Shown piece by piece: positions 1 to 60,883 of a stretch of DNA of 64,000 nt (positions are counted from its first letter, which is position 1; every line of letters starts with the position of its first letter). Origin of the DNA: Bacteroidales bacterium (GTDB lineage Bacteria; Bacteroidota; Bacteroidia; Bacteroidales; UBA932); NCBI GenBank assembly GCA_017546605.1, contig JAFYSH010000014.1, positions 124,001-188,000 on the forward strand, written 5' to 3'. The translations under genes were made by a program, and so were the position numbers. Below the pieces are notes generated by a model. That model searched no databases. It was not told where the DNA came from and worked only from the letters and a program-made list of their open reading frames with translations.

Positions 1-308
1 ATCAAGCTGTGGCAGCAGTTGTTCGCGCCAACGAACATTCCTTTAGGTCGAATTTTGCACAAGGAGGAAAGGCCTTTGCTTATGATTTGACTACACCCGA
101 AGGACGTACGGCTGCAAGTCTTGCGGTGCAGGCAACCCGCTCGGTGGGGCTCTTTTTTGCGGGGGTGGATCTGTTGTTCCTGCCTGATGGCCAGTGGACG
201 GTTTGTGAGGTGAATGGAAATGCGGGTTTCCGGACCATCTCGTCGGTTTCTAATTTTAATTTGCCCAGAGTTTTGCTGGAGGCTTGTTTGCGGGAGATAC
301 GTCGCTAG
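1..308 (+). CDS. RimK-type ATP-grasp ligase, C-terminal fragment
   Basis: The last ~101 codons of a gene that starts left of the window; the frame is open to base 3. The segment FRSNFAQGG and, further on, FAGVDLLF followed by CEVNGNAGF match the end of the RimK-like ATP-grasp fold, in which the Asp and the ExN residues bind Mg-ATP. The family forms amide bonds between a carboxylate and an amine, as in RimK glutamylation of ribosomal protein S6 or LysX. The N-terminal, substrate-defining half is missing, so the substrate cannot be named. The gene ends at a TAG and converges on rplI, sharing a hairpin terminator with it. Family is fairly sure, specific function unknown. Confidence 0.75.
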   Translation, partial: QAVAAVVRANEHSFRSNFAQGGKAFAYDLTTPEGRTAASLAVQATRSVGLFFAGVDLLFLPDGQWTVCEVNGNAGFRTISSVSNFNLPRVLLEACLREIRR

Positions 309-12483: not shown

Positions 12484-13815
12484 ATGAAAATAGCTGATTT
12501 GTATCGGGTTTTTCAGCAATCGGACGGAGTGTCCAAGGATAGTCGCAGTACGGCCGGTCGGATTTACTTTGCCTTGCGAGGTGAGCGCTTTGATGGAAAT
12601 GATTTTGCGTTGTCAGCTTTGGAGCAAGGGGCGAGTGCTGTGGTTGTTGCTGCGGATAGTGGTGTAGCACAGCAAGCGGAAGTTGCTTCCTTTGTGGAGG
12701 CGGGAAAAGTCTTTGTGGCAGAGGATCCGCTCAAGACGTTGCAGGACCTTGCTCGCTATCACCGAAGTCGTTTTCGCATCCCGGTGATTGCTTTGACGGG
12801 CACCAATGGAAAGACAACGACCAAGGAGTTGGTTCGTGCAGCTTTATCGGCCAAGTATCGGGTAACTGCCACTCAGGGTAACTTAAATAATCACATCGGT
12901 GTGCCGCTAACGCTTTTGGAAATTAACTCTGACACAGAAATTGCCATTGTGGAGATGGGGGCAAGTGCACCCAAAGAGATTGCGTTACTAGCCTCAATTG
13001 CTCTGCCTACCTTTGGTCTGATTACCAATGTTGGAACGGCGCATATTCTTGGCTTTGGTTCTTTTGAAGGGGTGCAACAAGCCAAGGGTGAGTTGTATGA
13101 TTATCTGCAACGTACAGCGGACTTGGCCTTTGTGAACGTGGCCAATCCTCATTTGCAGGAAATGGCTCGGATGCGTCCGGATTTGCGGGTGCAGCCCTAT
13201 AGCTTGGATCTGGCAGGTGCTCGCGTAGCTCCAATCACTTGGGATCAGCCCTTTTTGCGCTTGTCCTTTGAGGATGGTTCTGAACTGTCAACCAAGTTGG
13301 TAGGTCATTACAATGCAGATAATGTGATGGCGGCCTTGGCTGTTGCTGACTATTTTGGGGTTCCGAGGCAACAGGCGCGTGCTGCTGTTGCTGCATACGA
13401 GCCGGCCAATAATCGGTCTCAGTTGTTGAAAACGGATAAGAACCTGCTGATTGTGGATGCTTATAACGCAAATCCATCCAGTATGGCTGCAGCCTTGGAG
13501 AGCTTTGGTCGGATTGAATCTCCTAACAAGGGGGTTATTTTGGGAGATATGCGAGAGTTGGGGGTGGTTAGCGAAACAGAACACCGCAAGGTGATGGAAC
13601 GTGTTGCAGGGATGGATTTGAAAGCAGCCTGGTTTGTAGGGGAGCTATTTGGACACTTGAATCAGACCTGGTCGAATCCCGCTATACCCGTACGATTCTT
13701 TGCAAATGTAGAGGCGCTCAAACAACACTTGAAGGAGGCCACTACGCAGCAGATGACTTGGTTGATCAAGGGATCCAATGGAATTGGGTTGCAACAAATC
13801 ATTCAGGATTTATAG
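12484..13815 (+). CDS. murF: UDP-MurNAc-tripeptide--D-Ala-D-Ala ligase
   Basis: 443 residues. The Mur ligase ATP-binding loop is GTNGKTTTKEL (residues 106-116). The N-terminal domain contains KDSR near 18-21, which binds uridine in MurF, and NNRSQLL and DAYNANPSSM (from about residue 300) are typical of the C-terminal half. It adds D-Ala-D-Ala to the peptidoglycan precursor in the cytoplasm; the D-Ala-D-Ala ligase gene is also in this window (35.6 kb). Third gene of the flippase-dut-murF operon. Its last 13 bp overlap the convergent glycosyltransferase gene. Confidence 0.96.
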   Translation: MKIADLYRVFQQSDGVSKDSRSTAGRIYFALRGERFDGNDFALSALEQGASAVVVAADSGVAQQAEVASFVEAGKVFVAEDPLKTLQDLARYHRSRFRIPVIALTGTNGKTTTKELVRAALSAKYRVTATQGNLNNHIGVPLTLLEINSDTEIAIVEMGASAPKEIALLASIALPTFGLITNVGTAHILGFGSFEGVQQAKGELYDYLQRTADLAFVNVANPHLQEMARMRPDLRVQPYSLDLAGARVAPITWDQPFLRLSFEDGSELSTKLVGHYNADNVMAALAVADYFGVPRQQARAAVAAYEPANNRSQLLKTDKNLLIVDAYNANPSSMAAALESFGRIESPNKGVILGDMRELGVVSETEHRKVMERVAGMDLKAAWFVGELFGHLNQTWSNPAIPVRFFANVEALKQHLKEATTQQMTWLIKGSNGIGLQQIIQDL

Positions 13816-14816
13816 CCCGTTTTGTTTAGCTTCAACCACTCAAAGAGTAGGAGGGTGTTGGCTAATTTGACTTGTGTCAGCTGTTCCGGTCGGGACAGCT
13901 GTTTTTTTTGTCGGTGGTAATCCATGTGGGCGTTCCATACGCTTTTGAAGAAGGTCCATTTCCCGGTTAATAAGTAAACAGCAGCAATGGCGCTATCGAA
14001 ACACATCCGCAGGAAAATCCGTCCGTTGCGGGTGGATAACGGTAGGTTCTTGTGGAGCATAAAGAGGTTGTTCCGGAAGTTGAGGTACAACTTTCTCGGA
14101 GAATTGTTTGGCAAGGTGCCTCCTCCGACGTGGTAAATTACAGATTGTGGAATCACCCAGACCTGATGATCCAGGGACTGGACGCGCCAGCAAAGATCGA
14201 TCTCCTCCATGTGGGCGAAGAACAAGTCGTCCAAACCACCGGTTTGGGCATACAAATGAGTACGAATCAGAAAGCAGGTGCCAGATGCCCAGAAAACTTG
14301 AGTGGGATAGTCGTATTGGCCGTAATCTTTTTCGATTTTGGACAGCACCCGGCCTTGACAGTAGGGGAATCCTAACCAATCTACGAATCCGCCACAGGCT
14401 CCTGCGTGTTCAAAATGGTCTCGCTGATAATAGGAGCGCACTTTGGGAGAGCAGACACCCGCCTTGGGGTGAGAATCCATGAATTGGATCAGAGGAGAGA
14501 GCCATTCATGGGTGACTTCAACATCGGAGTTCAGTAGTAAGAAATAATCATATTTCTGCTCCCATTGTTGTATTTGGGCAAAAGCCCGGTTGTAACCTCC
14601 GGTAAAACCGTAGTTTTTGTCCAGCAAGATGAGGCGAACGCTGGGATATTGTTCTCGAAGCCAAGCCACTGAGTCGTCGCTGGATCCGTTGTCTGCAACG
14701 ATGAGTGTGGCTTCCCCTGTTTGAAGTTCAGGGGTTCTTTCCAGAAGGATGGGGACAAACTGTTTTAAAAAACTGAGTCCATTCCAATTCAAGATAACAA
14801 TAGCGGTTGTTCCCAT
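13803..14816 (-). CDS. GT2-family glycosyltransferase
   Basis: 337 residues. The GT-A fold markers are VILNWNG at the start, DNGSSDDS for nucleotide binding, LLNSDVEV as the DxD metal site, and EEIDLCWR, the ED-type acceptor motif of rhamnosyl- and related transferases. The C-terminal quarter is basic with one hydrophobic segment (about residues 275-290) that may bind the membrane. It probably adds a sugar to a cell-surface glycan. The start MGTTAIVILNWNG matches family practice, yet a perfect promoter lies only 7 nt before it. 3' end overlaps murF. Confidence 0.92.
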   Translation of the reverse strand: MGTTAIVILNWNGLSFLKQFVPILLERTPELQTGEATLIVADNGSSDDSVAWLREQYPSVRLILLDKNYGFTGGYNRAFAQIQQWEQKYDYFLLLNSDVEVTHEWLSPLIQFMDSHPKAGVCSPKVRSYYQRDHFEHAGACGGFVDWLGFPYCQGRVLSKIEKDYGQYDYPTQVFWASGTCFLIRTHLYAQTGGLDDLFFAHMEEIDLCWRVQSLDHQVWVIPQSVIYHVGGGTLPNNSPRKLYLNFRNNLFMLHKNLPLSTRNGRIFLRMCFDSAIAAVYLLTGKWTFFKSVWNAHMDYHRQKKQLSRPEQLTQVKLANTLLLFEWLKLNKTGYKS

Positions 14817-14823
14817 AAATATA

Positions 14824-14854
14824 CAAAGTTAAAAAAATCCCAACATAACGCAAA
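14824..14854 (-). promoter_or_regulatory. promoter of the GT2 gene
   Basis: Minus-strand TTTG (14851-14854), 19 bp, TAACTTTG (14824-14831). Its last base is separated from the ATG (14816) by only 7 nt, so the mRNA should be leaderless or nearly so. Confidence 0.8.
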
Positions 14855-36974: not shown

Positions 36975-37880
36975 ATGATGAATGCGACTACCTATGCTGA
37001 TGCGGTTCGCGAAATGACCCGGCAGCTGGAATCTGCTTACACACAACAAGAAGCAAAAACGTTGGCCTTGCGCTTGTTTTCCAGCCGTTTGGGCGTGCCG
37101 GAATATGCTTGTTGGACGGATGCGGACAAGCCAGTATCGGAAGCGATTTGGGCGCAGTGGTGTGGAGATGTATTGCAATTGTTGCGGCACCGGCCTTGGC
37201 AATATGTGGTAGGAGAGGCTTATTTTGATGGACACTCCTTTTTGGTCAATGAAGCCGTATTGATTCCACGACCTGAGACTGAAGAATTGGTTCGTTTAGC
37301 AGCGGATCGAGTGGAGCGACGTTGGGGATCGCGGGTTTCGTGGTTGGATGTGTGTACGGGTTCCGGTTGTATTGCATGGTCTTTGGCTGCCCGTTTTCCG
37401 GAAGCATCTGTTTGTGCCGTTGATTGGTCGCAGGCGGCCTTGTCTTTGGCGGCGCATCAGCCCATTTCTTCGGAAGAATGTCCTGTTCGTTCTCCTTTTT
37501 TTCTGCGTGCTGATGTTTTGCAAGGGGTGCCGGAAGATTTGATGCAGGAAACCAACCTGCCTGCACCGGGCACGTGGACTGCCCTGGTGAGTAATCCTCC
37601 CTATGTTCGGGTTTCTGAGCGCGATCAAATGGCGGCTTCGGTGTTGGACTATGAGCCGGAAATGGCCTTGTTTGTACCCGACGAAGACCCTCTGCTATTT
37701 TACCGCGCCTTGATGGACTGGGCAAAGGTCTTGCTTTGTCCGGGTGGCCAGGTATTTTGGGAGATTAATGAGGCTTTGGGCGAAGATCTTTGTGCGATGC
37801 TGCGTTCGGAGGGCTTCAGGGCTGTGGAACTGCTTGAAGATTTTCGCGGGCGTCCCCGTTTTGTCTTATTTGAAAAGTAA
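36975..37880 (+). CDS. prmC: release factor glutamine methyltransferase
   Basis: 301 residues. N-terminal helical domain, then SAM-binding LDVCTGSGCIAWSLA and the catalytic NPPY (SNPPYVRVSERD), as in PrmC/HemK, which methylates the Gln of the GGQ loop in RF1/RF2. The segment VLIPRPETEELV, just before the SAM motif, is diagnostic. Last gene of the pbp1A operon; the final 15 bp overlap the convergent radA. Confidence 0.94.
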   Translation: MMNATTYADAVREMTRQLESAYTQQEAKTLALRLFSSRLGVPEYACWTDADKPVSEAIWAQWCGDVLQLLRHRPWQYVVGEAYFDGHSFLVNEAVLIPRPETEELVRLAADRVERRWGSRVSWLDVCTGSGCIAWSLAARFPEASVCAVDWSQAALSLAAHQPISSEECPVRSPFFLRADVLQGVPEDLMQETNLPAPGTWTALVSNPPYVRVSERDQMAASVLDYEPEMALFVPDEDPLLFYRALMDWAKVLLCPGGQVFWEINEALGEDLCAMLRSEGFRAVELLEDFRGRPRFVLFEK

Positions 37881-39254
37881 GCGGCAAAGAGCACTAATAT
37901 CAGCCACTTCCACAATGCGGATGCGGTTGAAACGGGAACTTTGCGTCAGTTGATTGAACGAGGAGATGTAGATTTGCTCAAAACCCAGGCGTTCGGCTTC
38001 TGCAATACGTTGTTCAATCTGGCTGACCGGTCGGATTTCTCCACTCAGTCCCACTTCGGCGGCAAAGGCGATCTTTGAGCCAATCGGCAGATCAAAGTTG
38101 GAGGATAGGATGGCGCAAACAACGGATAGGTCACAAGCAGGATCACTGACCTTAAGTCCTCCGGCCACGTTGAGGAATACATCTTTGGCCGAGAGTTTAA
38201 ATCCAGCACGTTTTTCCAAAACGGCCAACAGCATATTCATTCTGCGGGTATCGAAGCCGGTGGCAGAGCGTTGTGGTGTGCCGTAGGCGGCTGTTGAAAC
38301 CAAGGCCTGTAACTCAATGAGGAACGGGCGTGTGCCGTCGATCATTGCACTGACAGCCACCCCGCTCAGGTTCTCTGCATGGCTGGGAATGAGCATTTCG
38401 GAGGGGTTGCTTACTTGTCGGAGTCCGTTGTTGCGCATTTCAAAAATCGCCAATTCTGCTGTCGATCCGAACCGATTTTTGATGGAGCGTAGGATGCGGT
38501 AAGCGTGGCGGGTATCCCCTTCAAATTGGAGAACGACATCCACAATGTGTTCCAATACTTTTGGTCCAGCGAGTGTGCCGTCCTTGGTGATGTGTCCAAT
38601 GAGGACGACGGGAGTGTTGGAGGCCTTGGCATAGCGTAGCAGCATTGCAGCACATTCTCTTACCTGTGACACCGAGCCGGGTGATGAGTCCAGGGCTTCG
38701 GAGTAGATGGTTTGAATGGAGTCGATGATCAGCAGTTGGGGTTGCAACTTTTGGGCTTGTTGCAGGATGTTTTCCAGCAGCGTCTCACCTAGAATCAGGC
38801 AGTTGTCGTGCAGTTGATCGGGGCTCAGACGTTCAGCCCGTAGCTTGATTTGTCGAGGAGATTCTTCTCCAGAAACATAGAGTGTTTTCAGCGAAGGACA
38901 GTGCAATGGGATTTGTAGCGAGAGTGTGGACTTCCCGATACCGGGCTCTCCTCCGATGAGGATCATCGAGCCTTCCACCAAACCGCCCCCTAATATGCGT
39001 TCTACTTCTTCGTTGCCAATTTGAATGCGACTTTGGGCCGTCATATCAATGTCTTTCAACGCCAGTGGTTGGGCTTGTTCGCAGTCTAACAAAGAACGGA
39101 CCCTACCTCCAGCAGATGACGTAGCAGAAGATTTGGGTGCCACCGGTTCTTCCACCAACGTATTCCATTCCCCGCAAGCCGGGCATTTTCCCATCCATTT
39201 TGCACTTTCGTTTCCGCACGATTTGCAGAACCATGCTGTCTTTGCTTTTGCCAT
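37866..39254 (-). CDS. radA: DNA repair protein RadA
   Basis: 462 residues from the ATG at 39254 (MAKAKTAWF, the normal RadA start). N-terminal zinc finger (CKSCG...CPACGEW), RecA-like ATPase with Walker A GGEPGIGKST, the RadA-specific KNRFG motif (SIKNRFGS) and a Lon-like C-terminal domain. It promotes branch migration in recombination. Frames extend nine codons further upstream, but the -7 TACATTTG at 39262-39269 lies there. Only 7 nt separate that element from the ATG. Confidence 0.95.
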   Translation of the reverse strand: MAKAKTAWFCKSCGNESAKWMGKCPACGEWNTLVEEPVAPKSSATSSAGGRVRSLLDCEQAQPLALKDIDMTAQSRIQIGNEEVERILGGGLVEGSMILIGGEPGIGKSTLSLQIPLHCPSLKTLYVSGEESPRQIKLRAERLSPDQLHDNCLILGETLLENILQQAQKLQPQLLIIDSIQTIYSEALDSSPGSVSQVRECAAMLLRYAKASNTPVVLIGHITKDGTLAGPKVLEHIVDVVLQFEGDTRHAYRILRSIKNRFGSTAELAIFEMRNNGLRQVSNPSEMLIPSHAENLSGVAVSAMIDGTRPFLIELQALVSTAAYGTPQRSATGFDTRRMNMLLAVLEKRAGFKLSAKDVFLNVAGGLKVSDPACDLSVVCAILSSNFDLPIGSKIAFAAEVGLSGEIRPVSQIEQRIAEAERLGFEQIYISSFNQLTQSSRFNRIRIVEVADISALCRLLFK

Positions 39255-39278
39255 AGTGTTACAAATGTAGTACATTTG
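39247..39278 (+). promoter_or_regulatory. promoter of the serine hydrolase gene, overlapping a radA -7
   Basis: TTTG (39247-39250), 20 bp, TACATTTG (39271-39278). The sequence 39262-39278, CAAATGTAGTACATTTG, is a perfect palindrome giving back-to-back -7 elements; the left half serves radA on the minus strand. Confidence 0.7.
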
Positions 39279-47264: not shown

Positions 47265-47293
47265 AGATGTCATACCAAACTTATCGTAAGTTA

Positions 47294-47323
47294 CAAAGTT
47301 AGCAAAATAGGTAATCGGTGCAA
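47294..47323 (-). promoter_or_regulatory. promoter of the TPR-EnvC-malQ operon
   Basis: Minus-strand TTG (47321-47323), 19 bp, TAACTTTG (47294-47301); leader ~25 nt. Confidence 0.75.
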
Positions 47324-49108: not shown

Positions 49109-49831
49109 GTTCGACGTAAATACAAACTCATTCAGTTCCGGGCAGTTGGTGTGAAAGATTTCACGGCGTGAGCCTTCCCATTTGATACGGCCTTGATGGA
49201 TGAATGAGATCTGGTCACCAATTTCCAGCACAGAGTTCATGTCATGGGTATTGATGATGGTGGTGATGTTGTATTCTTGGGTGATTTCCGCAATCAGTTC
49301 ATCAATGTGTATGGCGGTCAATGGATCCAGACCGGAGTTTGGCTCGTCGCAGAACAGATACTGCGGATTCAAGGCGATGGCTCGAGCGATCCCCACCCGT
49401 TTCTGCATACCCCCCGATAATTCGGCCGGGTATTTTTTATGTGCATTCTCCAAATGTACCCTTTTCAGGCAGAAATCCACACGGTCTTTCTTCTCGCCAT
49501 TGCTCCAGTCGGTAAAGAAATCCATAGGAAACCGGATGTTCTCTTCGACGGTAGCAAAGTCAAAAAGGGCACTACCTTGAAAGAGCATTCCTATGCGTTG
49601 GCGGATTTTTTTCTGTTCCGATAGTTTCAAACGGTTGAATACTACCTGGTCAAAGATGACATCACCACTGTCCGGGCTGTGCAGACCGACGATTGTTTTC
49701 AACAGGACTGTCTTTCCCGATCCGCTGGCTCCGATGATCAGCGAGCATTGTCCGGGCTGGAAAGTGGTGTTGATGTCGTGCAATACCTCTTTTCCGAGGA
49801 AGGATTTGGAGATGTGTTGTACCGCAATCAT
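49067..49831 (-). CDS. mlaF: ABC transporter ATPase, MlaF-like (Mce type)
   Basis: 254 residues. Walker A GASGSGKTV, signature LSGGMQKR, Walker B LFCDEPNSGLDP and the H-loop INTHDMNSV are complete. LSGGMQKRVGIARAIALNP is characteristic of the Mla/Mce ATPases. With MlaE it powers lipid traffic between membranes at the inner membrane. Start overlaps the mlaE stop. No mlaD or mce substrate-binding gene follows; the 3' end runs 42 bp into the convergent ECF-partner gene. Confidence 0.92.
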   Translation of the reverse strand: MIAVQHISKSFLGKEVLHDINTTFQPGQCSLIIGASGSGKTVLLKTIVGLHSPDSGDVIFDQVVFNRLKLSEQKKIRQRIGMLFQGSALFDFATVEENIRFPMDFFTDWSNGEKKDRVDFCLKRVHLENAHKKYPAELSGGMQKRVGIARAIALNPQYLFCDEPNSGLDPLTAIHIDELIAEITQEYNITTIINTHDMNSVLEIGDQISFIHQGRIKWEGSRREIFHTNCPELNEFVFTSNLAKQLKTKTDIQL

Positions 49832-50574
49832 CGTAGCAAAAGTTGGGTTAAAATCAGGTTGAAAACAAGAATCAGTGCACTGCTGGTGACAATGGATTGG
49901 GTGCTGGATCGGCCTACGCCCAGCGATCCTCCTGTGGCAGTATAGCCGTAGAAGGAAGCAACGGTCGTGATGATGAAACTGAATACAGCCGTTTTGATGA
50001 TGCTGTAGGTGATATAGTGTCCCAGGAACCAGAACTGTAGACCGGTCATATAGTCCGCAACGGGGATGATACCGGTGGTATAAACGATGAGCCAGCCGCC
50101 CGCCAATCCCAATATGAAGCTCATCAGCATCAGGAAAGGATTGAGCAGGGTTGTTGCTACTACTTTGGGTAAAATCAGGTAATTGGCAGAGTTTACGCCC
50201 ATCATTTCCATCGCATCAATTTGCTCTGTAATGCGCATGCTGCCGATTTCCGAAGCGATGTTTGATCCGATTTTTCCGGCCAGGATGAGGCAAACCATGG
50301 TCGAGCAAAACTCCAGAATCAAGCTTTCTCGGGCCATGTATCCTACGTACATTTTGGGAATTAAGGGACTGACCAGGTTGAGTGCTGTCTGCATGACAAT
50401 GACGGCACCAATAAAAATGGAGATCAAGGCAATCAGTGGAATGGACTGCATGACCAGTTTGTCTGCTTCCAGAATCAGTTGCTTGCCGAAAAGGGACCAT
50501 TTTTCGGGTTTTCGGAAAACCCGTTGCATCAAAAGGATGTATTCTCCGGTCAATTCAAAGGCGCGCTTGAACAT
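49828..50574 (-). CDS. mlaE: ABC transporter permease, MlaE-like
   Basis: 248 residues, five to six membrane helices. The MlaE motif region AREISLVLEFCS-like stretch (here ARESLILEFCSTMVC, with SNIASEIGSMRITEQIDAMEMMG following) is diagnostic, since it contains the conserved EIGxMxxxEQIDAM. It is the membrane half of a Mla-type lipid transporter. First gene of mlaE-mlaF; a TACTTTTA near-consensus lies around 50597-50604 on the minus strand. Confidence 0.92.
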   Translation of the reverse strand: MFKRAFELTGEYILLMQRVFRKPEKWSLFGKQLILEADKLVMQSIPLIALISIFIGAVIVMQTALNLVSPLIPKMYVGYMARESLILEFCSTMVCLILAGKIGSNIASEIGSMRITEQIDAMEMMGVNSANYLILPKVVATTLLNPFLMLMSFILGLAGGWLIVYTTGIIPVADYMTGLQFWFLGHYITYSIIKTAVFSFIITTVASFYGYTATGGSLGVGRSSTQSIVTSSALILVFNLILTQLLLR

Positions 50575-50630
50575 ACGTTTTTTTAAAATTTTGTAAAAGT
50601 ACTAAATTTTAGGAGAATTTGACGATTTGG

Positions 50631-50662
50631 TTTGAAGTGGAAACCGGGAGTCGATAAGTTTG
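50631..50662 (+). promoter_or_regulatory. promoter of comM-tsaE-namZ
   Basis: TTTG (50631-50634), 20 bp, TAAGTTTG (50655-50662): full consensus. Seven nt separate it from the ATG at 50670, predicting a leaderless or near-leaderless mRNA. Confidence 0.82.
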
Positions 50663-50669
50663 CTGAAAA

Positions 50670-52184
50670 ATGCTAGTTCAAATCAATAGTGCGGCCTTTC
50701 TGGGCCTGAAAGTGATGCCTGTAACCATTGAGGTGTCCATTACTGCAGGAGTGGGTGTGTTTTTGGTGGGTTTGCCGGATAGTGCTGTGAAGGAGAGTCT
50801 GTTGCGGGTGACCACGGCATTATCGGCTTGTGGTTATCGGATGCCGGGGAGGCGGATAGTGATCAACCTCGCGCCAGCGGATCTGCGAAAAGAGGGAACA
50901 TTGTTTGATTGTGCCATTGCTTTGGGAATTCTGGCGGCATCGGGTCAGATTCAGTTGTCGGGTGCAGCGCATTTTTGCGTTTGGGGAGAATTGGGTCTGG
51001 ATGGATCGTTGCGTAGAATTCCGGGGGCTTTACCGTTGGCAATCTATGCAAAGCAGGCTGGCTTTGAGGCTTGTTTTTTCCCTGCGTCGGTAGAGGAGGA
51101 GGCTTCATTGATTGGAGGTATTCGGGTTTGTGGAGCCACGCATCTGAAGGAATTGATTGGCTGGTTGCAGGTGGGCGAGTATCCGGTCCGGCATCGGGAA
51201 CTGGTTCGAGAATCCGTTTTGTCCACGCAGCAAGGGGATGACTTTCAATGGGTGGTGGGCCAGGCTTTTGCAAAGCGGGGTTTGGAAATTGCGGCTGCAG
51301 GAGCGCACAATCTCCTATTGGTAGGGCCTCCGGGGGCTGGAAAGAGTTTTATGGCCCGGTGTTTGGCGTCGATCCTTCCTCCGATGAATCCGACGGAAGT
51401 GCTGGAAACAACCAAAATTTATTCCGTGGCCGGCTTAGATGCCCAGTTGTTTCTTCAAGGAAAAAGGCCCTTCCGTTCTCCGCATCATACAGCAAGTGCC
51501 GTTTCGATGACGGGGGGAGGAATGAAAGCCACACCGGGAGAAATGTCATTGGCTCACAATGGAGTGTTGTACTTGGATGAGATGATTCAGTTTTCCCCCG
51601 CGTTGTTGAACGAATTGCGTCAGCCGCTGGAGGAACGCACCATTTCGATAGCCCGGGCGCGTTATAAGGTGACCTATCCGGCTTCTTTTATGCTGGTGGC
51701 TTCGATGAATCCGTGTCCTTGTGGTTATCACGGGGATGGAACGGATCGCTGTACGTGTCAAGAAGGATCCATTCAGCGCTATTGGAGTCGCCTTTCAGGG
51801 CCCTTGCTCGATCGGATCGACCTGCAGATTTTTGTGCGTGCCGTAGATTCCCGACTTTTGGTGAATCGTGCGTTGGAGGAGTCCAGTGCTTCCATTGCTG
51901 CTCGTGTTGCGCAGGCTCGTGAACGCCAACATCGGAGATTTGCCCACGAAGGAATTCATACCAATTCGGAAATGAATAGCCAGCAATTGGCGCGGTATTG
52001 TCCGTTGACCACAGAAGGATGCGCTTTTCTGGATAAAATCATCAGTCGGTTTCATCTTTCGGCCCGGGCCTATTCCCGTATCTTGAAGTTATCTCGCACC
52101 TTGGCAGATCTGGAAGGGTTGGAGGAAGTCTTACCGAGGCATCTGTCCGAAGCAGTGGGCTATCGGTGCAAGGATGTTTTTTAA
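50670..52184 (+). CDS. comM: ComM/YifB family Mg-chelatase-like ATPase
   Basis: 504 residues. MLVQINSAAFLGLKVMPVTIEV is the normal start pattern (residues 1-22); an N-terminal Lon-protease-like domain, then AAA+ with Walker A GPPGAGKS, Walker B LYLDEM and the cysteine-bearing NPCPCGYHGD, followed by the C-terminal Mg-chelatase domain. ComM is a hexameric helicase that extends branch migration during integration of incoming DNA. First gene of comM-tsaE-namZ. Confidence 0.94.
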   Translation: MLVQINSAAFLGLKVMPVTIEVSITAGVGVFLVGLPDSAVKESLLRVTTALSACGYRMPGRRIVINLAPADLRKEGTLFDCAIALGILAASGQIQLSGAAHFCVWGELGLDGSLRRIPGALPLAIYAKQAGFEACFFPASVEEEASLIGGIRVCGATHLKELIGWLQVGEYPVRHRELVRESVLSTQQGDDFQWVVGQAFAKRGLEIAAAGAHNLLLVGPPGAGKSFMARCLASILPPMNPTEVLETTKIYSVAGLDAQLFLQGKRPFRSPHHTASAVSMTGGGMKATPGEMSLAHNGVLYLDEMIQFSPALLNELRQPLEERTISIARARYKVTYPASFMLVASMNPCPCGYHGDGTDRCTCQEGSIQRYWSRLSGPLLDRIDLQIFVRAVDSRLLVNRALEESSASIAARVAQARERQHRRFAHEGIHTNSEMNSQQLARYCPLTTEGCAFLDKIISRFHLSARAYSRILKLSRTLADLEGLEEVLPRHLSEAVGYRCKDVF

Positions 52185-58926: not shown

Positions 58927-59637
58927 TTAAAGCAGAGCAGCAGCGGCTGCTGCAAAAACAGCAGCGGTCTCTGCCCGCATACGCATAGTTCCGAAGGTAA
59001 CCGGGACAAAGCCGGCAGCGATGGCTTGTTGGACCTCCGCTTGGCTAAAGTCTCCTTCGGGGCCAATCAGTACAATGACCGGTCCGCTGCCATAGTTTTG
59101 TAGGGCGTTGCGGATCGGTTGTTTTTCGTATTCGTTGCCGCAGTAGGCGATGAGCTTCAGTGCGGATGAAGATGCACTTTGTTGAATGAACTCAGAAATG
59201 GGTGTTAATGAGTGCCATTTGGGAAACCAGGTCCGCAGGGATTGGCGAGCAGCAGCCAGTAAGATTTTTTCTTCCCGTTCGTCTTTGATGACTTTTCGCT
59301 CAGAGTGTTCGCAGAGTAGGGGGGTCACTTCGTCCATCCCCAATTCGGTGGCTTTTTCCAAGAACCACTCAAAACGGTCGATGTTTTTGGTGGGTGCTGC
59401 AGCAATGTGTAGGCGGAAGGGTTGCTCCCAGGCAAAATGCTCGCGGGATTCAATCAGGACCTTGGTACAGCGGCTGTCCGCTTCCAGAATGCGGCCTTGG
59501 CAACGCGTGCCCTGGCCATCGGTAACGGCGATGGGATCGCCTGCCCGATTACGCATGACTTTGATGCAGTGAAATGATTCATCGGCAGATAGTTCAACGG
59601 TGGCATCAGCCAGATTGGGAGCGGTGTACAATTCCAT
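58927..59637 (-). CDS. rsmE: 16S rRNA m3U1498 methyltransferase
   Basis: 236 residues. N-terminal PUA-like domain (LSADESFHCIKVMRNRAGD), then a SPOUT knot with VLIGPEGDFSQAEVQ (GPEGG..-type) and MRMRAETAAVFAAAAA, the typical RsmE end. It methylates U1498 in the decoding region of the 30S subunit. MELYTAPNL is a normal RsmE start; a -7 element lies only 5 nt upstream. Confidence 0.95.
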   Translation of the reverse strand: MELYTAPNLADATVELSADESFHCIKVMRNRAGDPIAVTDGQGTRCQGRILEADSRCTKVLIESREHFAWEQPFRLHIAAAPTKNIDRFEWFLEKATELGMDEVTPLLCEHSERKVIKDEREEKILLAAARQSLRTWFPKWHSLTPISEFIQQSASSSALKLIAYCGNEYEKQPIRNALQNYGSGPVIVLIGPEGDFSQAEVQQAIAAGFVPVTFGTMRMRAETAAVFAAAAAALL

Positions 59638-59642
59638 GTCAA

Positions 59643-59650
59643 CAAAGGTA
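59643..59650 (-). promoter_or_regulatory. -7 element of rsmE
   Basis: Minus-strand TACCTTTG, 5 nt before the ATG at 59637; -33 weak. Predicts a leaderless mRNA. Confidence 0.55.
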
Positions 59651-59683
59651 GCGTTTTTGCGACTTTTTAATGAGTTTTTTATG

Positions 59684-59691
59684 TAAATTTG
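59684..59691 (+). promoter_or_regulatory. -7 element of the DUF5009 gene
   Basis: Plus-strand TAAATTTG, 4 nt before the ATG at 59696. TTTG at 59656-59659 is 24 bp upstream, a bit far. Predicts a leaderless mRNA. Confidence 0.55.
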
Positions 59692-59695
59692 TCGT

Positions 59696-60883
59696 ATGAT
59701 TACAAAATTACCTCGTTACGTAGCTTTGGATGTCTTGCGCGGTATGACCGTTGCGGGTATGATCCTTGTGAATAACCCCGGTAGTTGGGGAAAGATTTTC
59801 CCGCCCTTGCGGCATGCTCCGTGGGATGGATGTACTCCGACCGACTTGGTTTTCCCCTTCTTCCTTTTTGTGGTAGGGGCGGCAATGGCCTTTTCTTTTG
59901 CCAAGTACCAGGAAGGACTCAATGTCCAATCCATGAAAAAATTGGCCAAACGGAGTCTCGCTATCTTTATGGTGGGTTTGGCACTGAATGCTTTCCCGTT
60001 CTACCCGACATCGCCTGATCCGGCCTTGAGTTTTGGTGAGAATTATGTAAACTGGCTGGGTCGCATCCGGATATTGGGCGTTCTGCAAAGAATCGCTTTG
60101 TGTTATTTTGTAGGGGGGATTTTGGCCTTGTGGCTGAAGTCGGGCCGACGGATTTTGTGGGGTATGGGCTTCCTGTTGGTGTTGCATCCTCTAATCTTGC
60201 GTTTGCTGGGAGGTCCGGCGTGGAGTACCCTGGAGGGGAATGTTGCGGGTCCGATTGATGTGGCACTGTTTGGGGATGCTCACGTTTATCATGGTTACGG
60301 AATTGCTTTTGATCCTGAAGGCTTGTTTGGAGTCTTGTCGGGTAGTGCGACCGTTTTGCTGGGTTATCTGATGGGATTGCTGATTCGGAAAACCTCGGAA
60401 AAGATGGAGGCGGTGTCCAAATTGTACACCATTGGCCTGATTTGTTTGGGGTTGGGCTCGGTGCTGAATGTGTGGGTGCCGATCAACAAGCCCTTGTGGA
60501 GCAGTTCGTATGTGTTGTACGCGGGAGGTTGGGCGATTGTGATGTTGGCTTTTTTCATTTATTGGATTGATATTCGGGGTAAGGAAAAGTTCTTTACTCC
60601 ATTCAAGGCCTTGGGAATGAATCCGTTGTTTGCGTTCGTGATGGCGGGTGTCTTTTCCAAAACCTTTAGTCGGATTATCAAGTGGACCGTAATGTTGCCG
60701 CAGGAGGATGGAACTTTTGTTGAAAAAACGTGGAGTCTGTCGTCTTGGTTCTATCAGAACTGTTGTGTTTCCATTTTTGGTGCTACCGAGATGGCGTCGC
60801 TGCTGTATGCGTTGATTTATGTGGCCATTTTTACGGCGATGGCGTTGTTGCTGTACCGAAAGAGAATTGTCATTAAACTTTAG
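59696..60883 (+). CDS. DUF5009 / heparan-alpha-glucosaminide acetyltransferase-like membrane protein
   Basis: 395 residues with about 10-11 membrane helices. ALDVLRGMTVAGMILVNNPG and WDGCTPTDLVFPFFLFVVGAAMAF are the signatures of the NagX/HGSNAT-like family (acyltransferase-3 clan), some members of which are proposed to acetylate amino sugars across the membrane. The role in this organism (wall or host-glycan amino sugars) is unknown. First gene of an operon with the phosphodiesterase and S9B peptidase. Confidence 0.9.
   Translation: MITKLPRYVALDVLRGMTVAGMILVNNPGSWGKIFPPLRHAPWDGCTPTDLVFPFFLFVVGAAMAFSFAKYQEGLNVQSMKKLAKRSLAIFMVGLALNAFPFYPTSPDPALSFGENYVNWLGRIRILGVLQRIALCYFVGGILALWLKSGRRILWGMGFLLVLHPLILRLLGGPAWSTLEGNVAGPIDVALFGDAHVYHGYGIAFDPEGLFGVLSGSATVLLGYLMGLLIRKTSEKMEAVSKLYTIGLICLGLGSVLNVWVPINKPLWSSSYVLYAGGWAIVMLAFFIYWIDIRGKEKFFTPFKALGMNPLFAFVMAGVFSKTFSRIIKWTVMLPQEDGTFVEKTWSLSSWFYQNCCVSIFGATEMASLLYALIYVAIFTAMALLLYRKRIVIKL

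Follow-up and report, generated by a model that had tools for sequence, protein, structure and literature searches.

The genome of the uncultured Bacteroidales bacterium analysed here contains a discrete class of genes whose −7 promoter element lies 4–8 nt before an ATG start codon, and which are predicted to be transcribed into leaderless or nearly leaderless mRNAs. As a likely explanation, we propose two discrete promoter-to-start arrangements under the primary sigma factor (sigma-ABfr type, −7 element TAnnTTTG). Most genes would carry the −7 element at least 16 nt before the ATG and have leaders from roughly 12 nt upwards. In about 13% of all genes with an exact motif at up to 60 nt, it would lie 4–8 nt before the ATG, making them leaderless or nearly so. 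With initiation 4–5 nt past the −7 element, the 5′ ends of the latter transcripts would be positioned at the A of the AUG or at most 4 nt from it, with translation beginning at a 5′-terminal AUG. Motif, start codon, spacing statistics and conservation pattern can be read directly from the DNA, and from them we infer where the transcripts begin and that their translation is leaderless. Of the genes with a recognisable promoter, about one in eight is thus predicted to have its transcription start almost at the start codon itself, a mode of gene expression that is already known. The gene comM, for which a leaderless mRNA had been proposed in a sequence-only reading of a 64,000-nt stretch of this genome (the window), shows the leaderless geometry and would be a possible member only; if it is not one, its promoter would lack an exact TAnnTTTG.

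The whole genome comprised 29 contigs with 1,682,253 bases, and genes were called with a simple coding model. The spacing d was measured between the start codon and the final G of TAnnTTTG. Since the gene caller set the start of radA at 39194 instead of 39254, the caller-based counts are approximate. Of 858 genes preceded by a gap, 43 had their closest motif (considered up to 60 nt) at d = 4–8, 7 at d = 0–3, 13 at d = 9–15 and 266 at d = 16–60. The distribution was thus bimodal, with a peak at d = 4–8 (17 genes at the mode, d = 4; 2.9 genes expected for d = 4–8 from base composition), a trough at d = 9–15, and a broad leadered peak from d = 16. In intervals of 5 nt, only 10 genes were counted at d = 9–13, and 34–48 genes per interval over d = 14–33 (34 at d = 14–18; 45 at d = 29–33). 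The class at d = 4–8 represents 43 of the 329 genes in which an exact motif lies at most 60 nt from the start; as the other 529 genes examined had no exact motif within this distance, the share of about 13% is valid only for exact-motif genes. Assuming 4 nt from the −7 element to the start site, a transcript with d = 4 would begin precisely with the A of the AUG.

Such a peak could also be caused by misassigned start codons, if ATGs located near transcription starts were called as starts and translation in fact began at a later Met. The starts were indeed predicted by a simple coding model, and for some of the listed genes the start codon is uncertain, among them radA, misplaced by the caller, and the gene at position 76378 on the minus strand of contig C17. 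The latter is at least one case of this kind; it was one of 16 genes compared with a sister species, in which no ATG is present at the corresponding place. However, 52 ATGs at d = 4–8 were in frame, compared with 6 in each of the remaining frames, and neither GTG nor TTG starts showed an excess at this distance, so the peak is restricted to ATG. Also, the N-termini of radA and rsmE are conserved, and in 9 of the 16 genes the starts were aligned with identical spacing in the sister species. We regard misassignment as a very improbable origin of the peak.

The pattern did not depend on gene calls. Raw counts of ATGs following the motif proved too noisy within a single genome; the counts were therefore restricted to ORFs and split by frame, and for a gene-call-free count the motif had to be followed, at distance d, by an ATG opening an ORF of at least 100 codons. 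Thereby, 15.2 matches per nt were obtained at d = 4–8 versus 8.1 at d = 9–15 in this genome; the corresponding values were 6.4 and 3.7 for the same-genus genome, and for 80 named Bacteroidota loci 10.4 and 3.7. With three decoy motifs, the peak and trough were not seen in this genome. Over 100 genomes belonging to the family, 5239 matches had spacing 4 and 3495 had spacing 11, the former being more numerous in 90 of the 100 genomes; the spacing-11 matches do not represent a pure null, as some of them are real promoters. The excess varied by genus from about 3.3-fold down to none. It was largest in one genus (g22; genomes G022, G064, G081, G095, G107 and G119), where spacing 4 was 3.3 times as frequent as spacing 11, and leaderless usage may be highest there.

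For the comparison with the sister species, 818 kb of a same-genus genome were used. Nine of the 16 genes with d = 3–8 here keep a motif at d = 3–8 there, all nine with identical d, versus 2 of 86 leadered genes (d = 16–45 here) with a motif at d = 3–8 in the sister species. The conserved set mostly consists of housekeeping genes (RlmH, RecJ, RpoN, a metallo-beta-lactamase-fold protein, a cytidine deaminase, a MiaA-ATP-grasp fusion, an M1 peptidase, RadA and RsmE). LpxK comes near to it, with a spacing of 8 here and 9 in the sister species. The suggestion of the sequence-only reading that leaderless translation may be a regular option in this organism is strongly supported by the genome-wide spacing statistics, the frame and codon controls and the sister-species conservation: the spacing peak is discrete, in frame, specific for ATG and conserved in a sister species. 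In other genera, the motif of radA and rsmE is mostly located at d = 17–33, or an exact motif is absent; predicted leaderless status thus turns over between genera. Deep conservation of the leaderless starts of these two genes was considered and rejected, since they are mostly confined to the genus. In another genus, rlmH starts at a spacing-4 motif (G002 C28:8135).

Two further observations were made in this genome. The MiaA-ATP-grasp fusion is a 592-aa ORF (L037:2530-4305, extending into window positions 1-308) in which a MiaA-type IPP transferase and a RimK-like ATP-grasp domain are joined; its identity to the counterpart in the same-genus genome is 75%, and the spacing of 8 is conserved. 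On contig C28, two divergent genes located 35 nt apart (L117:13088-13122) both have the motif at spacing 4.

In Bacteroidota, translation starts without Shine-Dalgarno sequences, and how ribosomes find the start codon is still under study. A genome-readable leaderless class offers a test list for leaderless initiation, including radA, recJ, rsmE, rlmH, rpoN, lpxK and others. It could also improve start annotation, as a −7 element 4–8 nt before an ATG supports that start. The distance from the −7 element to the transcription start is 4 or 5 nt in Flavobacterium johnsoniae (PMC6847099), and the −7 element is located at −12 to −5 in F. psychrophilum (PMC9723704); the 5′ ends predicted here adopt this Flavobacterium distance. 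Leaderless minorities of about 4–13% are already known in Bacteroidota: by dRNA-seq about 3.7% of the 5′ UTRs of B. thetaiotaomicron are shorter than 10 nt (PMC7366714), 5.5% of the mRNAs of F. psychrophilum are leaderless (PMC9723704), and 87% of the leaders of F. johnsoniae are longer than 10 nt, hence 13% have at most 10 nt (PMC6847099). B. thetaiotaomicron belongs to the same phylum, uses the same sigma-ABfr promoter and has a leaderless minority as well, but its leaders were measured whereas ours are predicted, the predicted share is higher here (43/329), and the examples named there are transposases, sensor kinases and transporters, in contrast to radA, recJ, rsmE, rlmH, lpxK and rpoN (PMC7366714). 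Both Flavobacterium species share with the present genome the TAnnTTTG at −12 to −5, 4–5 nt before the start site, and a leaderless minority. In the two corresponding papers most mRNAs are leadered, and a separate peak and a trough of 5–11 nt leaders were not found described in the parts of their text considered. The Actinobacteria and Deinococcus-Thermus are similar in that a promoter element directly 5′ of the start codon is the genomic signature of leaderless genes, but differ in sigma factor, motif and a larger share of genes (PMC3160421). The same computational survey, which identifies only Pribnow-box-like promoters, reported genes of this kind for 1 of 37 Bacteroidetes/Chlorobi genomes (PMC3160421).

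What would be new here, as a case made from sequence, is that the class is discrete, ATG-only, present phylum-wide in the loci and conserved within the genus. In addition, leaders of about 5–11 nt appear to be avoided; in the portions of the main text of the Bacteroidota TSS papers that were considered, no description of such a trough was found. To a wider generalization we give an even chance, namely that Bacteroidota possess an AUG-strict leaderless mode (leader of 0–4 nt) and a leadered mode (at least 12 nt), with leaders of about 5–11 nt being selected against and genes switching mode through turnover of promoters on a genus-level time scale.

Within the window, five genes had been named as leaderless cases (Table 1). 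The proposed spacing is present in all of them, and it is conserved in the sister species for radA, rsmE and the DUF5009 gene, but not for comM and the GT2 gene.

Table 1. Positions of the promoter-like elements and genes discussed for the window; d is the distance from the last G of the −7 element to the start codon.
Feature	Position	Strand	Remarks
TTTG, −33-like element of comM	50631..50634	+	20 nt 5′ of TAAGTTTG
TAAGTTTG, candidate −7 element of comM	50655..50662	+	unusual G at −9; weak compared with the genome's own profile
CTGAAAA, from −7 element to ATG	50663..50669	+	predicted transcription start A50667 or A50668; in-frame TGA at 50664-50666
comM, YifB family Mg chelatase-like AAA ATPase, 504 aa	50670..52184	+	TIGR00368; conserved start
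MlaE-family permease gene, divergent from comM	49828..50574	−	
GT2 glycosyltransferase-like gene	13803..14816	−	TAACTTTG at 14824-14831, d = 7; sister species d = 19
radA	37866..39254	−	TACATTTG at 39262-39269, d = 7; sister species d = 7
rsmE	58927..59637	−	TACCTTTG at 59643-59650, d = 5; sister species d = 5
DUF5009/HGSNAT-like gene	59696..60883	+	TAAATTTG at 59684-59691, d = 4; sister species d = 4

Two of these genes are part of compact divergent promoter regions. Between radA and a beta-lactamase-like gene on the plus strand (39305), back-to-back −7 elements lie within the palindrome CAAATGTAgTACATTTG (window 39247-39278), from which radA is predicted to be transcribed leaderless (d = 7) and the beta-lactamase-like gene with a leader (d = 26). 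The divergent genes rsmE and DUF5009/HGSNAT-like, both predicted to be leaderless, have starts 58 nt apart (window 59638-59695). In the sister species (G001 C12, by 46185), their start codons are 26 nt apart with −7 elements separated by 1 nt, which would leave scant room for leaders if both promoters are located there.

For comM, the start codon is secure. The product belongs to the YifB/ComM AAA ATPases (544.1 bits with TIGR00368 at a curated cut-off of 362.4), and the gene starts at ATG 50670, separated by a start-to-start gap of 95 nt from the MlaE-family gene. This ATG is preceded by an in-frame TGA (TGA-AAA-ATG), which makes a longer comM start impossible, and the same methionine is aligned in nearly all of 122 comM genes. 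The start proposed in the sequence-only reading (MLVQINSAAF) is thereby confirmed. Upstream of it, at 50631-50672 on the plus strand, the layout TTTG-20-TAAGTTTG-7-ATG is present, TAAGTTTG being an exact TAnnTTTG −7 element and the spacing of 20 nt lying within the 19–21 nt typical of a sigma-ABfr TTTG. In the window, 8 matches to TTTG-N19-21-TANNTTTG were found, with 0.9 expected from dinucleotide shuffles. If TAAGTTTG is used, a leader of 2–3 nt is predicted from the spacing known in Flavobacterium, within the 0–4 nt proposed before.

The site is weak when compared with promoters of the same genome, however, and of the earlier description as a perfect promoter with a full Bacteroidota consensus, the layout holds and the strength does not. 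Relative to a profile of 234 leadered promoters, the −7 element of comM ranks at the 1.7th percentile, the upstream DNA at the 2.6th and the site overall at the 1.3rd. A G at −9, as in TAAGTTTG, occurs in 2.6% of these promoters and was virtually absent in F. johnsoniae, where the −7 motif is TAHHTTTG (PMC6847099). Genuine promoters in this genome are AT-rich, whereas the comM spacer is GC-rich; the site hence lacks both a G-free −10/−9 (TAHHTTTG) and AT-rich upstream DNA, and its score is in the mid-range of TAnnTTTG matches inside genes.

Two readings of the comM site have to be weighed. That comM is transcribed from TAAGTTTG into a leaderless mRNA, as first proposed, seems possible to us but rather doubtful. 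It is in line with the full TTTG-20-TANNTTTG match, with the secure start codon and with a spacing of 7 within a class that is mostly real (43 seen, 2.9 expected), and TAAGTTTG is the top-scoring site of the divergent upstream region. Against it stand the G at −9 and the GC-rich spacer, which place the site so low among the promoters, and the missing conservation of the spacing: the motif is located 18 nt before the start in the same-genus comM, and a motif at 3–8 nt was seen in just 2 of the 122 comM genes, counting the present one. Comparison of upstream DNA across comM genes therefore did not support the proposed 7-nt arrangement, only 1 of 121 others having the motif at 3–8 nt, and promoter-to-start spacing, a supporting rather than a defining property, is not kept in relatives. 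The alternative that TAAGTTTG is a chance match, with comM being transcribed with an ordinary leader from a degenerate primary-sigma promoter or by another sigma factor, appears reasonably likely. The site scores like TAnnTTTG matches within genes, and exact motifs within 60 nt are absent from 93 of 122 Bacteroidota comM genes as well as from the 529 genes mentioned above. On the other hand, a search of 50440-50700 for another primary-sigma promoter returned no site scoring above TAAGTTTG, and an exact −33/−7 pair at spacing 20 is rare by chance. In figures, a spacing prior (odds of about 14) weighed with a profile likelihood ratio of 0.02 gives about 0.23 for the comM site. The −33 TTTG is found at 19–21 nt in 14% of leadered promoters versus 4% expected, an enrichment of about 3-fold, and taking it into account might lift the figure to about 0.5, with some double counting. 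A leader of 0–4 nt thus agrees with the geometry, while promoter strength and conservation speak against it. We conclude that comM is a weak and probably ordinary case, and it is a poor example for testing leaderless initiation.

The same octamer also occurs elsewhere in the window. TAAGTTTG with a TTTG 19 nt upstream is located 2 nt before the start of a TPR gene at 47273 (window 47276-47306), where it would set the 5′ end of the transcript inside the ORF, and a better −7 element, TAACTTTG, is present just upstream at d = 20. This copy is a likely decoy and very probably not the promoter of the TPR gene, which favours a chance match at comM and cautions against relying on the consensus alone. 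In the comM of one relative (locus L007, genome G007), TATCTTTG precedes by 4 nt an ATG from which the protein is 5 residues longer at its N-terminus than usual, and an ACG is present where other comM genes carry ATG.
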